From Candidatus Fermentimicrarchaeum limneticum (GTDB lineage Archaea; Micrarchaeota; Micrarchaeia; Burarchaeales; Fermentimicrarchaeaceae): a DNA stretch of 64,000 nucleotides. Within the stretch, counting starts at the first letter, position 1. Each line of letters opens with the position of its first letter. A program made the translations under genes and the position numbers. Positions 8,726 through 29,037 of this stretch are shown here, piece by piece. The notes below the pieces were generated by a model that had not been told where the DNA came from, searched no databases, and was given only the letters and a program-made list of their open reading frames with translations. The stretch is taken from positions 434,001 to 498,000 of the forward strand of contig CP058998.1 of NCBI GenBank assembly GCA_013426015.1, given 5' to 3'.

Positions 8726-8744
8726 CAAAGCAACCTTAATATAC
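8726..8744 (+). promoter_or_regulatory. shared promoter motif, copy 1
   Basis: CAAAGCAACCTTAATATAC, one mismatch from the consensus shared by several accessory genes. Downstream at 8779 is only a relic frame. Confidence 0.55.
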
Positions 8745-13430: not shown

Positions 13431-13760
13431 ATGGGTAACTTATTGGCGCAGATTATATCATCTAAAGCCAAAACAAGCTTAAGTATAACCTCAAACAAAT
13501 TATTAGTATATGCCCATAAAGATCCAGAAAAAAGAAGGGAATTTGCGAGGAGATACTACAAAGCATATCGGGAAAAATATGGAGATAAAGTGAGGGCTTA
13601 TCCTAGAGAGCATAGAAAGAAAAATATAGAAAAGGCAAGAGCATATGAAAGAGAATGGAGAGGGAGAAACGTAGAAAGGGAGAGAGCAAAAGATAGGGAA
13701 TATTACCAGAAGCATAAAGAAGATATAAGCATAGTGAAAGGGGAAGAGGTGAGCAGATGA
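13431..13760 (+). CDS. HNH-endonuclease-type N-terminal helical repeat protein, probably degraded
   Basis: From about residue 28 the product is a charged, Tyr/Arg-rich helical repeat (DPEKRREFARRYYKAYREKYGDKVRAY...NIEKARAYEREW) like the N-terminal region of virus-borne HNH endonucleases. A shared-type promoter (13467-13485) lies inside the open frame, so the true start should be downstream, near 13510, where ATGCCCATAAAG occurs in the +1 frame; one missing base would join MP to HKDPEKRR. The upstream 26 residues are therefore probably not translated. The stop overlaps the next ATG. Confidence 0.45.
   Translation: MGNLLAQIISSKAKTSLSITSNKLLVYAHKDPEKRREFARRYYKAYREKYGDKVRAYPREHRKKNIEKARAYEREWRGRNVERERAKDREYYQKHKEDISIVKGEEVSR
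13467..13485 (+). promoter_or_regulatory. shared promoter motif, diverged copy
   Basis: CAAAACAAGCTTAAGTATA, a variant of the shared motif, ahead of the tiny-ORF operon. Confidence 0.5.
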
Positions 13761-13870
13761 AAATATCTACAGACAACGCGATGACACCAATAGAATACCA
13801 AAAGAAGAAAGCCGCACACAAGGCAGATGCAGCGAGGAAAAAACAACAGCATAAAGGCGGGGTAAAATGA
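13757..13870 (+). CDS. tiny basic ORF in ATGA-coupled operon
   Basis: 37 residues, rich in Lys and Ala (YQKKKAAHKADAARKKQQHKGG), with ATGA overlaps at both ends and GGTGAGCAGATGA as its start region. Probably a small nucleic-acid-binding peptide of a virus or plasmid; function unknown. Confidence 0.45.
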   Translation: MKISTDNAMTPIEYQKKKAAHKADAARKKQQHKGGVK

Positions 13871-13986
13871 GAACTCCGAAAGGTTGTGTCTACAAGGGAA
13901 AAAAGAAAAGGAGGGCGAGGTATGAGGCGTTCGTTCTACCTGACGGGACGGTTAGCACTAGGAAAATAAAAAGGGTGAGCAGATGA
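13867..13986 (+). CDS. tiny basic ORF in ATGA-coupled operon
   Basis: 39 residues; a basic start (CVYKGKKKRRARYE) followed by AFVLPDGTVSTRKIKRV, which looks like a beta hairpin. ATGA overlap at both ends. Function unknown. Confidence 0.45.
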   Translation: MRTPKGCVYKGKKKRRARYEAFVLPDGTVSTRKIKRVSR

Positions 13987-14150
13987 AAAAACAGTTTGCA
14001 GTTCGGTTTGAGGCAGAGAGTAGCATTAGCTTCTATCGTTGGTTGATAAAGCACAATTTCCCTGAAGGATATAATGTTCTATGCTTCAATTGTAATTGTT
14101 CTATTGGTGCGCATGGCTATTACCCCCATCAAAAGCCAAAGCAAGGTTGA
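13983..14150 (+). CDS. HNH endonuclease C-terminal fragment
   Basis: 55 residues; FYRWLIKHNFPEGYNVLCFNCNCSIGAHGYYPH matches the C-terminal end of virus-type HNH nucleases (pattern LCxNCN...G...CPH). The upstream HH part of the motif is missing and the final Cys is replaced by Tyr, so the piece should be inactive alone. It follows, through ATGA overlaps, the N-terminal-like piece at 13431. Confidence 0.55.
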   Translation: MKKQFAVRFEAESSISFYRWLIKHNFPEGYNVLCFNCNCSIGAHGYYPHQKPKQG

Positions 14151-14229
14151 TGAGTGAGAGTATGGTGGGAGGCATCTAACAGGTGGTTTTGAGTAAAAAA
14201 GGGCTGGAAGGGGCAGAGAAGGTGTTTCA

Positions 14230-14541
14230 GTGACAAAGAAACTCACAATTGACTCAGCGTTCAAGATAGAGAACATAGTAGCTTCAGCCAATTTGGGAGT
14301 GGAGCTTGACCTTTATGTTCTTGCCCAGAAAATCAGGAACATAGAGTATGAGCCAGAGCAGTTTCCAGGTGCAATACTCAAGCTGAAAGACCCAAAGGCA
14401 TCTCTTCTGCTCTTCAAGAACGGCAAGGTAATATGCACAGGCTGCAAAAACGAGAGAGAAGTGAAGTATGCCTTAGAGCGAGCAATAAAGCTACTGGCTT
14501 CCTATGCAAAACCTTTGCCAGTCCCCAAGAAGGAGGGATAG
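14230..14541 (+). CDS. single-repeat TATA-binding-protein (half TBP)
   Basis: 103 residues that contain exactly one TBP repeat: FKIENIVASANLGVELDL, YEPEQFPGAILKLKDPKA, LLLFKNGKVICTGCKNEREVKYALERAIKLL. Ordinary archaeal TBP is about 180 residues with two such repeats forming the DNA saddle. Here the frame stops after one repeat with the tail KPLPVPKKEG, and no second repeat is found in any frame downstream. The start GTG (after GGTG) overlaps the stop of a 14-codon frame (14189-14233), so it belongs to the tiny-ORF operon. It could form a homodimeric saddle or pair with the host TBP or TFB. Family identification is strong; function is inferred. Confidence 0.88.
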   Translation: MTKKLTIDSAFKIENIVASANLGVELDLYVLAQKIRNIEYEPEQFPGAILKLKDPKASLLLFKNGKVICTGCKNEREVKYALERAIKLLASYAKPLPVPKKEG

Positions 14542-14570: not shown

Positions 14571-14618
14571 AGGGTTGGTAGGTCGTGGGATTACGCCTTT
14601 GTGATTCCACCTCCAACC
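14571..14618. terminator. long imperfect hairpin after the half-TBP gene
   Basis: GGTTGG..GT.GTGG.AT pairs with AT.CCAC..CCAACC around a GC-rich loop. It lies between the half-TBP stop and the next promoter and may end the transcript or be a structured RNA. Confidence 0.4.
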
Positions 14619-14621
14619 TAC

Positions 14622-14640
14622 CAAAGCAATCTTAATATAC
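14622..14640 (+). promoter_or_regulatory. shared promoter motif, copy 2
   Basis: CAAAGCAATCTTAATATAC, exact consensus; 33 bases before the ATG at 14673. It lies inside the open frame that begins at 14601, showing that the true start is 14673. Confidence 0.75.
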
Positions 14641-14672
14641 TCGGACACACTATTACTCAAAGGGGTGTTTTG

Positions 14673-15008
14673 ATGAGAGGAGGTTACATCCTTGAAGGTA
14701 TCATATACATTATAATCGCTATCGCATTATTTTACGTATCTAAAAATATAGACATTATCTGGTTCCTGCCGATTAATGCTCTTGGGAGTAACGCTGAAAC
14801 TGCCGCTTGGATTTTCCAAATGGCGGGTGCTTTAAGTGGTGTTTTAGGATTACTATCATTTCTGTATGGGCTAATCTCATCACAACCAAAATCAAAAATT
14901 GAAATAAAAGTTGAAACAAGAGAATCCGTATATGTCCGTTGCTCAAAATGCAAAACAAAGAATGAGGAAGACGCAGAGTTTTGCAAGAAATGTGGTAATG
15001 AACTCTAA
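14673..15008 (+). CDS. membrane protein with C-terminal zinc ribbon
   Basis: 111 residues: two membrane segments (about 6-24 and 46-66) and a C-terminal zinc ribbon VRCSKCKTKNEEDAEFCKKCGNEL. The ATG at 14673 is chosen because the promoter precedes it. Such two-helix plus zinc-ribbon proteins are common in archaea; function unknown. Confidence 0.7.
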   Translation: MRGGYILEGIIYIIIAIALFYVSKNIDIIWFLPINALGSNAETAAWIFQMAGALSGVLGLLSFLYGLISSQPKSKIEIKVETRESVYVRCSKCKTKNEEDAEFCKKCGNEL

Positions 15009-15017
15009 ATATCAAGC

Positions 15018-15036
15018 CAAAGCAATCTTAATATAC
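15018..15036 (+). promoter_or_regulatory. shared promoter motif, copy 3
   Basis: CAAAGCAATCTTAATATAC, exact consensus, 22 bases before the ATG of the next gene, so that transcript is probably leaderless. Confidence 0.75.
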
Positions 15037-15057: not shown

Positions 15058-16041
15058 ATGGCAGCATACAAGAAAGCCAAGGACACTATAAGAGATAACC
15101 TTCAGGATACACCTACAGCCGACCAGTTGAAGGAAGTTTCCGCAGGTGAAAAATATGCCAAACACCTGCCTTCAAAGGAAGAAATAAAGAAAATTGCGTG
15201 GCATATTGAGAAAATCATGAAGGTGAAAGTGAGCGATGCTCTCAGAAACGGGGAGGAAGGCACGAAAGTCATCCTCGTGCAGGATTTAGAAAAACTCTTA
15301 GATGGAAGGGTTAACCAGAGGTTGGAGAGATTTGCGCGGTATCCCCTTGTCGTAGAGCAGTTGAAGCAGGAAGAGACGAAAGGGTTCGAGCCTGTGAAGC
15401 ATGCGCCCTCTTATTTTGACCCTTCAGACGGCGCTGTGTACATGATAACGGATAACTTCGAAAAAATCTACAAGGAAAAGTGCGAGGAAAAGATGATAGA
15501 TGCCAATAGCGCTGAGGGCAAAAGATTTAAAAAATTCTTGGAATTCCTCTATTTTGCCCATGAGGAGATACACAAAACAATTGCCGAGAAAAACCCAGCC
15601 ATTAGAAACAGCAGCTCGGACAGGTGGGCAGAGCTGGCGAAGGTTCTCGAGGAGCACCTTGACGATGAAAACAAGACTCCGGAAAAGGAGGAGAAGGTTG
15701 TCAAATCCATAGAGTCAATCAGGGACAAGTATGACGCCCTAGATACCTGCATGGAGGGTATTGCCCACTACGCAGGATACCGGGTCATGTGCAAACTGGG
15801 CTACTCCAGCTGGGCCAGTACGGAATTTGGAAACATCAGGAACTACACCGGGACTGAACCCGAGACTCCTACGTATAAGGAAGTAATGGACGCTTCAAAG
15901 GGAATAAAATTCGTGGAAGCAATTCAAAGAAGGATCCATGAAAACCCAATTGCACTCATAATTGAGCATCCGCCTACTTCCATGAAGTATATAAATAATC
16001 CTGATGAGTACCTGAAAGCCAGGGAGGAAGGGGAGATTTAG
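15058..16041 (+). CDS. predicted zinc metallopeptidase (HExxH)
   Basis: 327 residues, no signal peptide or membrane segment. LYFAHEEIHKTIA gives the HExxH zinc motif at residues 168-172, and CMEGIAHYAGYRVM at 231-244 offers a Glu (233) at the distance expected for a third ligand in gluzincin-type enzymes. I do not recognise the exact family. The protein is likely cytoplasmic. It has its own copy of the shared promoter. Confidence 0.6.
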   Translation: MAAYKKAKDTIRDNLQDTPTADQLKEVSAGEKYAKHLPSKEEIKKIAWHIEKIMKVKVSDALRNGEEGTKVILVQDLEKLLDGRVNQRLERFARYPLVVEQLKQEETKGFEPVKHAPSYFDPSDGAVYMITDNFEKIYKEKCEEKMIDANSAEGKRFKKFLEFLYFAHEEIHKTIAEKNPAIRNSSSDRWAELAKVLEEHLDDENKTPEKEEKVVKSIESIRDKYDALDTCMEGIAHYAGYRVMCKLGYSSWASTEFGNIRNYTGTEPETPTYKEVMDASKGIKFVEAIQRRIHENPIALIIEHPPTSMKYINNPDEYLKAREEGEI

Positions 16042-19025: not shown

Positions 19026-19547
19026 TTATACATCTGCTATACGGTGTAAGCGTTGTAATTGCCAATTACGTTCTTTGATGATGCTATTATCTGCGTTGTT
19101 AAAATGAGCGGCGACAGCTTTGATAGCATACGCAGGAGCGCCAAAAGCATGAGTGGCAACATGGGGAGTCGCAGCTGCATGACCGGCAGCACGAGCGGCA
19201 AAACATGCTGCATCCTGGCCTGCGCCAAGCGCATCGCGGGCAGCCGCATGGGCCGCAAGTGAGACCTTACGCACATCAGCCATTCTAAACACGCCCGTAC
19301 GTACCCATTCTCGACACGCTTCAATAGCTTTGCGTGGCCTATCATCTTTAGGATACTTCTCTTCGAAATACGGAAGTACATGCTCGGCGCAATCTGCAGC
19401 CCAGAGCGCCAATATTTTTTGTTCGGTCTTGAAAGCTTGATGCCCTACAAGCGCTGAAGTTGGCTTGTTAAGAATCTCTACAACTGACTTGCGCACGTTA
19501 GAAACTAATGCAGTTATTTTTGTACTTTTCTGTGTTACACGTTGCAT
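19026..19547 (-). CDS. Imm5-like putative immunity protein
   Basis: 173 residues, helical and Ala-rich. The pattern DCAEHVLPYFEEKYPKDDRPRKAIEACREWVRTG, then ALAAHAAARDA-like and ARAAGHAAATPHVATHAFGAPAYAIKA segments, matches the Imm5 family of immunity proteins found with polymorphic toxins in bacteria. No toxin gene is adjacent. It is GC-richer than its flanks, suggesting acquisition from bacteria. A role as an orphan immunity protein is an inference. Confidence 0.7.
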   Translation of the reverse strand: MQRVTQKSTKITALVSNVRKSVVEILNKPTSALVGHQAFKTEQKILALWAADCAEHVLPYFEEKYPKDDRPRKAIEACREWVRTGVFRMADVRKVSLAAHAAARDALGAGQDAACFAARAAGHAAATPHVATHAFGAPAYAIKAVAAHFNNADNSIIKERNWQLQRLHRIADV

Positions 19548-28930: not shown

Positions 28931-28951
28931 AGCCAGAGCAATCTTAATAGA

Positions 28952-29036
28952 TGGACCGGGCGGGATTCGAACCCGCGGCCTCTACCTTTTCCGCGGAAGA
29001 TGCGAAGGTAGCGATCTACCACTGATCTACCGGCCC
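28952..29036 (-). tRNA. tRNA-Ala(CGC) with a 13-base intron
   Basis: On the minus strand the acceptor stem GGGCCGG pairs with CCGGTCC and has the G3:U70 pair that marks alanine tRNA. The anticodon arm is CTACC-TT-CGC-A, then the insertion at 28988-29000 (TCTTCCGCGGAAA), then A-GGTAG. Removing it leaves a normal 7-base loop, with the intron after position 37, the usual archaeal place. T-arm GCGGG-TTCGAAT-CCCGC. CCA is not encoded. Confidence 0.9.
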
Positions 29037-29037
29037 A

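Follow-up and report, generated by a model that had tools for sequence, protein, structure and literature searches.

The window analysed in this study, a stretch of 64,000 nucleotides from the archaeon Candidatus Fermentimicrarchaeum limneticum, carries on its forward strand a gene for a single-lobed TATA-binding protein (TBP2, 14230-14541, 103 aa). The gene starts with GTG, and a ribosome-binding site (AGGTG, 14220-14224, + strand) was read 5 nt before the start; the start of the other TBP type of the host, TBP1, is likewise preceded by GGTG. The Pfam TBP profile PF00352 matched residues 11-91 over profile positions 2-84/85 with an E-value of 1.8e-29 and 101.9 bits (curated cut-off 22.9 bits), which makes it a full-length lobe by this profile, one complete lobe and nothing more. 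TBP2 covered half of each NCBIfam TATA-box-binding protein model and scored 95.9 bits with the best of them, where the cut-off is 270, so it is not a canonical two-lobed TBP. It aligned with a single lobe of archaeal TBP structures (phmmer 2.3e-41 against M. jannaschii 2z8u), and AlphaFold modelled it as a single lobe (pLDDT 82, pTM 0.70) that superposed on half of solved archaeal TBPs with an rmsd of 1.1-1.5 A. The original prediction had described an intact, stand-alone TBP lobe with a ribosome-binding site and had proposed structure prediction of the monomer; the profile match and the model bore this description out.

It had also allowed for a second lobe that would appear once a sequencing error was corrected. 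We searched the whole host genome (1.2 Mb, ~97% complete, two contigs) for TBP in six frames, with stops read through and E-values up to 10. Only three TBP stretches were found genome-wide, each by itself in a frame of 106-118 aa, indicating that neither the flanks of TBP2 nor the rest of the genome contain a second lobe for it; a two-lobed TBP was absent from the host in this search, and a hidden second lobe was thereby ruled out. Given the pattern in the phylum, it is unlikely that a two-lobed TBP hides in the missing ~3% of the genome. Furthermore, the TBP2 frame was kept at about equal length in congeners, and dN/dS between congeneric TBP2 genes was ~0.07-0.3, values which indicate that TBP2 is under purifying selection. 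The kept length and the low dN/dS argue against both a sequencing error and a gene fragment in decay.

The three host TBPs are the core copy TBP1 (C1:1045410, L001), TBP2 in the window and a second, also single-lobed TBP2 copy (C1:893905, L003). By eye, one neighbour of TBP1 resembled a gene for a ribosomal protein of the L21e type and another a gene for a small subunit of RNA polymerase. By blastn, a block of 303 bp including the TBP2 gene start (14220-14522, + strand) shared 98% identity with the other TBP2 copy; the first 90 codons agreed throughout and the flanks were unrelated, so one of the copies was made recently. TBP1 and TBP2 differed at ~17% of the lobe positions and at none of the seven DNA-contact positions. 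The host had a single, ordinary TFB, which spans 315 aa and contains two cyclin repeats. The nearest related record was MAG Sv174 (L053, 93% identity), and the related records belonged to Candidatus Micrarchaeota. The view of TBP2 as an exception in a host with an ordinary TBP had to be given up, since the host has no two-lobed TBP and the single lobe is the rule in most families among the matches listed. That TBP2 arose from an ordinary TBP by truncation or damage is extremely improbable. The recent duplication with unrelated flanks and the apparently lost upstream TATA element (see below) would suit such an origin, but the core TBP1 is single-lobed too, and the equal length in congeners and the purifying selection refute damage to the protein. 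The variant raised earlier, in which a damaged copy remains in a host devoid of TBP, failed as well, the core TBP1 being itself a half.

Upstream of TBP2 lies a chain of tiny, partly overlapping ORFs on the + strand (13431-14150), namely 13431-13760, 13757-13870, 13867-13986 and 13983-14150. The original prediction called this setting a mobile-looking micro-operon and TBP2 a possible inhibitor from a virus or plasmid. The overlapping tiny ORFs were present as described, but matches to PHROGs in this chain were weak only (E 5.8e-4 for 13431-13760 and 0.068 for 13983-14150), leaving its mobile nature half supported. TBP2 itself had no match in PHROGs, and a scan of viral contigs (IMG/VR) returned distant relatives alone, at most 43% identical; a viral origin was rejected on these two results. 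The same M23 peptidase gene adjoins TBP2 in G003 and in the window. Farther downstream, 19026-19547 (- strand) encodes an Imm-5-like immunity protein (PF21805, E 5.4e-41).

In the alignment, all seven DNA-contact positions of TBP2 were canonical: N15, V17, F45, L60, F62, I68 and T70. With an ungapped offset of 12 they correspond to Arabidopsis N27, V29, F57, L72, F74, V80 and T82. Residues of this kind make the minor-groove contacts of canonical TBP and include two intercalating phenylalanines. Across 75 single lobes, N15, V17, F45 and F62 were invariant, position 60 was L or I and position 70 T or S, while K63-N64 and I68 of the FKNGK/Ile68 signature, which TBP2 carries, were near-invariant. 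The glutamates expected to contact TFB were also kept (Glu41 in 75/75 and Glu43 in 74/75 single lobes, both in TBP2), whereas position 41 was Asn in 24/29 canonical N-lobes. According to a passage in PMC7221094, the stirrup glutamates touch TFB in canonical C-lobes. Natural fused relatives from the same clade were modelled as a full saddle (pLDDT 89.7; TM 0.86-0.91 against solved TBPs), which suggests that Micrarchaeota lobes are compatible with the usual lobe pairing.

For the distribution, we surveyed 60 relatives and 223 genomes of the phylum that were at least 80% complete, and assigned the states from the matches listed and the loci examined. Among these matches, families f1-f6 (the host's own order), f8, f10, f11, f13, f14, f16, f19 and f27 had single-lobed frames only, and f7, f12, f15, f17, f18 and f20-f25 had two-lobed frames of roughly 185-265 aa; the matches listed thus indicate that one lobe per TBP chain is the norm across most families of Micrarchaeota. 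Family f26 was assigned to neither state. Genomes of family f9 carried a pair of diverged half-TBP genes at distant chromosomal sites, as in the one-contig genome G043, where they lie at 119 kb and 882 kb (L033/L034); other such pairs were L044/L045 (G046) and L046/L047 (G049). These unlinked partners may form an obligate heterodimer. G213, also of f9, had four TBP stretches, two of them inside one 185-aa frame, and represents either a two-lobed TBP beside half-TBPs or contamination. The one-contig genome G133 had exactly one half-TBP and one TFB, so that, short of the half acting as a monomer, any saddle in G133 has to be homodimeric. TBP2 was restricted to the genus of the host among the matches listed for the relatives and phylum genomes searched, with 0-2 copies per genome. 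A genome from the host's order with single-lobed TBP also had a second, very divergent TBP-like lobe (L039, G009:C12:19300-19539, 42 bits). In the record of Vulcanisaeta sp. JCM 14467 (L127), the two TBP lobes fell in two different frames, probably through a frameshift in the record. Another record held an IscU/NifU-like ORF of 506 aa (L135:5038-6558) with, by eye, a seeming intein-like insertion after its first part.

These results lead us to regard TBP2 as likely to be a paralogue of the single-lobed general TBP of most Micrarchaeota, two chains of which would pair as a saddle that recruits TFB. The original prediction that a lone lobe could dimerise into a saddle was kept as the best reading. 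Since the half-size TBP is the only kind in the host and, among the matches listed, in most Micrarchaeota families, two copies very probably pair, and a homodimeric saddle is what the sequences favour; DNA binding, TFB recruitment and the roles of TBP2 and TBP1 relative to each other we infer in the same way. Two chains (TBP2-TBP2 or TBP2-TBP1) would join via the surface that links both lobes in normal TBP, and the symmetric saddle would kink the TATA box with two phenylalanines per lobe. A single two-cyclin TFB would be recruited via the Y-E-P-E-Q-F stirrup, which is on both subunits. A homodimer would offer two equivalent TFB sites, of which the BRE would pick one, and the direction of transcription would be set by TFB on the BRE. 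In another reading, also raised in the original prediction, a half-TBP is a monomeric regulator or inhibitor that binds TFB or TBP1 and blocks initiation. TBP2 is indeed a paralogue with altered non-contact residues, and a lone lobe with the TFB stirrup could compete for TFB. However, TBP2 retains every DNA contact. Moreover, entire families (among the matches listed) and a one-contig genome have no TBP other than half-TBPs, which means that the general job must fall to the lobe itself; we consider the monomeric inhibitor very unlikely.

The original prediction placed TBP2 close to a set of near-identical promoters and proposed a dedicated promoter-recognition system. The closeness was confirmed. 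An exact copy of the promoter pattern AAAGCAATCTTAATATA lies downstream of TBP2 at 14623-14639 (+ strand), before the ORF 14601-15008, whose true start is likely the ATG at 14672, and another at 15019-15035 (+ strand) before the ORF 15058-16041. In the host genome, AAAGCAATCTTAATATA had 8 exact matches and 17 within two mismatches, with 0 control matches, mostly in two clusters, one around TBP2 (window ~8.7-29 kb) and one at C1:551-566 kb. Near-identical copies of the promoter motif CAAAGCAATCTTAATATAC were located in the window at 8727, 14623, 15019, 21152, 24132, 28425 (- strand), 28598 and 28935, and elsewhere at C1:551-566 kb, C1:1116582 and C1:1117213. One of the two CAAAGCAATCTTAATATAC islands ends at a tRNA-Lys gene (28950-29037). 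Across genomes, the motif occurred in 5/5 genomes of the genus and in 0/8 outside it. A general motif search of host upstream regions (n=206) returned TATA-like words only. A recurrent word, GGGTAACTTTCC/GGTAACTTT, stands before several host genes and may be a regulatory element or a repeat.

A comparison of the regions upstream of TBP2 genes revealed a degenerate copy of the genus motif, CAAAGCAAGGTTGATGA, before TBP2 in the window (14137-14153, + strand). Compared with G002, the TATA part of this leader has apparently been lost, so expression of the window copy is uncertain. The motif or a close variant preceded TBP2 in G002, G003 and both G004 copies, and the box upstream of TBP1 genes was different (TTTATAAA). 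No motif was found upstream of the second host copy of TBP2 (L003). It is plausible from these sequences that TBP2, with TFB, is dedicated to the near-identical CAAAGCAATCTTAATATA promoters of the variable genes of the genus, including its own, with TBP1 as the housekeeping factor. This idea refines the reading of TBP2 as a general-TBP paralogue and does not conflict with it, but we hold it to be rather unlikely. The two motif clusters, one of them around TBP2, the motif in front of TBP2 in three other species and the different box of TBP1 favour it. Motif and TBP2 are also both confined to genus g1 among the genomes searched; the dedicated system of the original prediction gains some support from this, but the shared ancestry of one genus explains the co-occurrence equally well. 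Moreover, the DNA-contact residues are identical in TBP1 and TBP2, the L003 copy has no motif, and the conserved AAAGCAA half of the motif could be read by TFB or by another regulator. G001 has the motif and no TBP match, though TBP1 is missing there too and the lack of TBP2 is thus probably a gap.

The origin of the single lobe was approached with a tree of lobes. The lobes of Micrarchaeota and Diapherotrites, whether single, N or C, all fell into one clade outside the N- and C-lobes of other archaea (support 100/93), and TBP2 grouped with its congeners inside it (99/96). Forcing all archaeal N-lobes, or all C-lobes, together was rejected (AU p 0.025 and 0.018), but holding together the N-lobes of other archaea was not (p 0.53). 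In a study of 34 species, Adachi et al. (2016, PMC4910066) obtained clean N and C lobe clades and took N/C mixing as a sign of more than one duplication. However, two-lobed Micrarchaeota TBPs contained identical inter-lobe DNA runs of up to 89 bp, mostly within ~residues 40-71 with a few reaching residues 19-38, and most of them had an excess of identical codons between lobes; neither feature was detected in the Woesearchaeota and Thermoproteota controls. Runs of 47-89 bp were seen in L061, L054, L048, L030, L049, L062, L064 and L079. This pattern indicates gene conversion within the gene of a general transcription factor, with the DNA-binding core as its centre. Conversion can yield the same N/C mixing and may be its source, and re-duplication was therefore dropped as the sole cause but kept as likely. 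Outside the converted core, two-lobed Micrarchaeota TBPs kept no N/C identity (the N-lobe was more N-like in 11/22), whereas in Diapherotrites the N-lobes were more N-like than their own C-lobes in 8/8.

Among the Micrarchaeota sampled for an RpoB tree, the three branches that diverged deepest were single-lobed with good support, and the states required five changes at equal cost, or six losses when regain was forbidden. In one genome, the RpoB match ran across two adjacent frames (L228/L230, G056:C2:18986-20214), reflecting a split gene or a frameshift. Single lobes scored about equally against N and C profiles; their discriminating columns were 5 N-like versus 8 C-like, the flanks leaning N and the core C. 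We slightly favour, at a little better than even against repeated loss, that one lobe was lost near the base of Micrarchaeota and that later re-fusion produced two-lobed proteins again. Under repeated loss, for which the chance appears just short of even, conversion took place in a two-lobed ancestor, about six independent lobe losses followed and today's two-lobed TBPs are its vertical descendants. Such a course draws on the strong conversion signal in two-lobed Micrarchaeota TBPs, which the controls lack, on the modest price of six losses against five changes and on the N-like N-lobes of Diapherotrites. It sits less well with the Micrarchaeota lobes that keep no N/C identity outside the core, with the single-lobed deepest branches and with the rejected all-N and all-C groupings, though conversion can cause such rejection too. 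It also seems quite improbable that the lobe is a relic from before the duplication, that is, that Micrarchaeota never inherited a fused TBP and formed their two-lobed TBPs by later independent fusions. The position of the clade outside other archaeal N- and C-lobes and the about equal profile scores would agree with a relic, but some N/C identity survives in the lobes of Diapherotrites, the glutamate for TFB contact resembles that of C-lobes, and gene conversion can produce a similar picture.

TBP is the protein by which all archaea and eukaryotes find gene starts. It is usually viewed as one chain whose two lobes go back to a single duplication in the distant past (Adachi et al., 2016, PMC4910066). 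A lineage living on half-TBPs would supply a natural minimal TBP with an exactly symmetric saddle, and would directly test whether transcription takes its direction from TFB alone. The fusion of lobes could be studied as a comparatively recent, possibly repeated event, and the two diverged half-TBP genes of f9 would add a heterodimer stage for comparison. From TBP2 and its set of promoters one could learn how a duplicated general factor comes to have a regulon of its own.

We found no dedicated description of a single-lobed TBP as sole TBP in the literature. Single-lobe archaeal TBPs are mentioned in one Methods sentence of Ravarani 2020 (PMC7221094, citing Brindefalk et al. 2013), where they were excluded from analysis. 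They are probably the same kind of protein as TBP2; that mention does not describe taxa, sole-TBP status, lobe conversion or paralogues. A comparison of DPANN genomes counts TBP as conserved with its size unmentioned (PMC8407392). Single TBP-like domains elsewhere, such as the N-domain of RNase HIII, are one TBP-fold unit as TBP2 is, but the likeness is a distant one of fold only (Foldseek E 0.1-0.2) and TBP2 has no fused catalytic domain. Haloarchaea have several TBP paralogues per genome, which may give promoter specificity (PMC7289017); their sets consist of two-lobed TBPs and many TFBs, whereas our host has single-lobed TBPs and one TFB. With canonical archaeal TBPs (P. woesei 1pcz, S. acidocaldarius 1mp9, M. 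jannaschii 2z8u), TBP2 has in common the lobe fold, the DNA contacts and the TFB glutamates. However, the canonical proteins have two lobes per chain and TBP2 has one, so its saddle would need pairing in trans.
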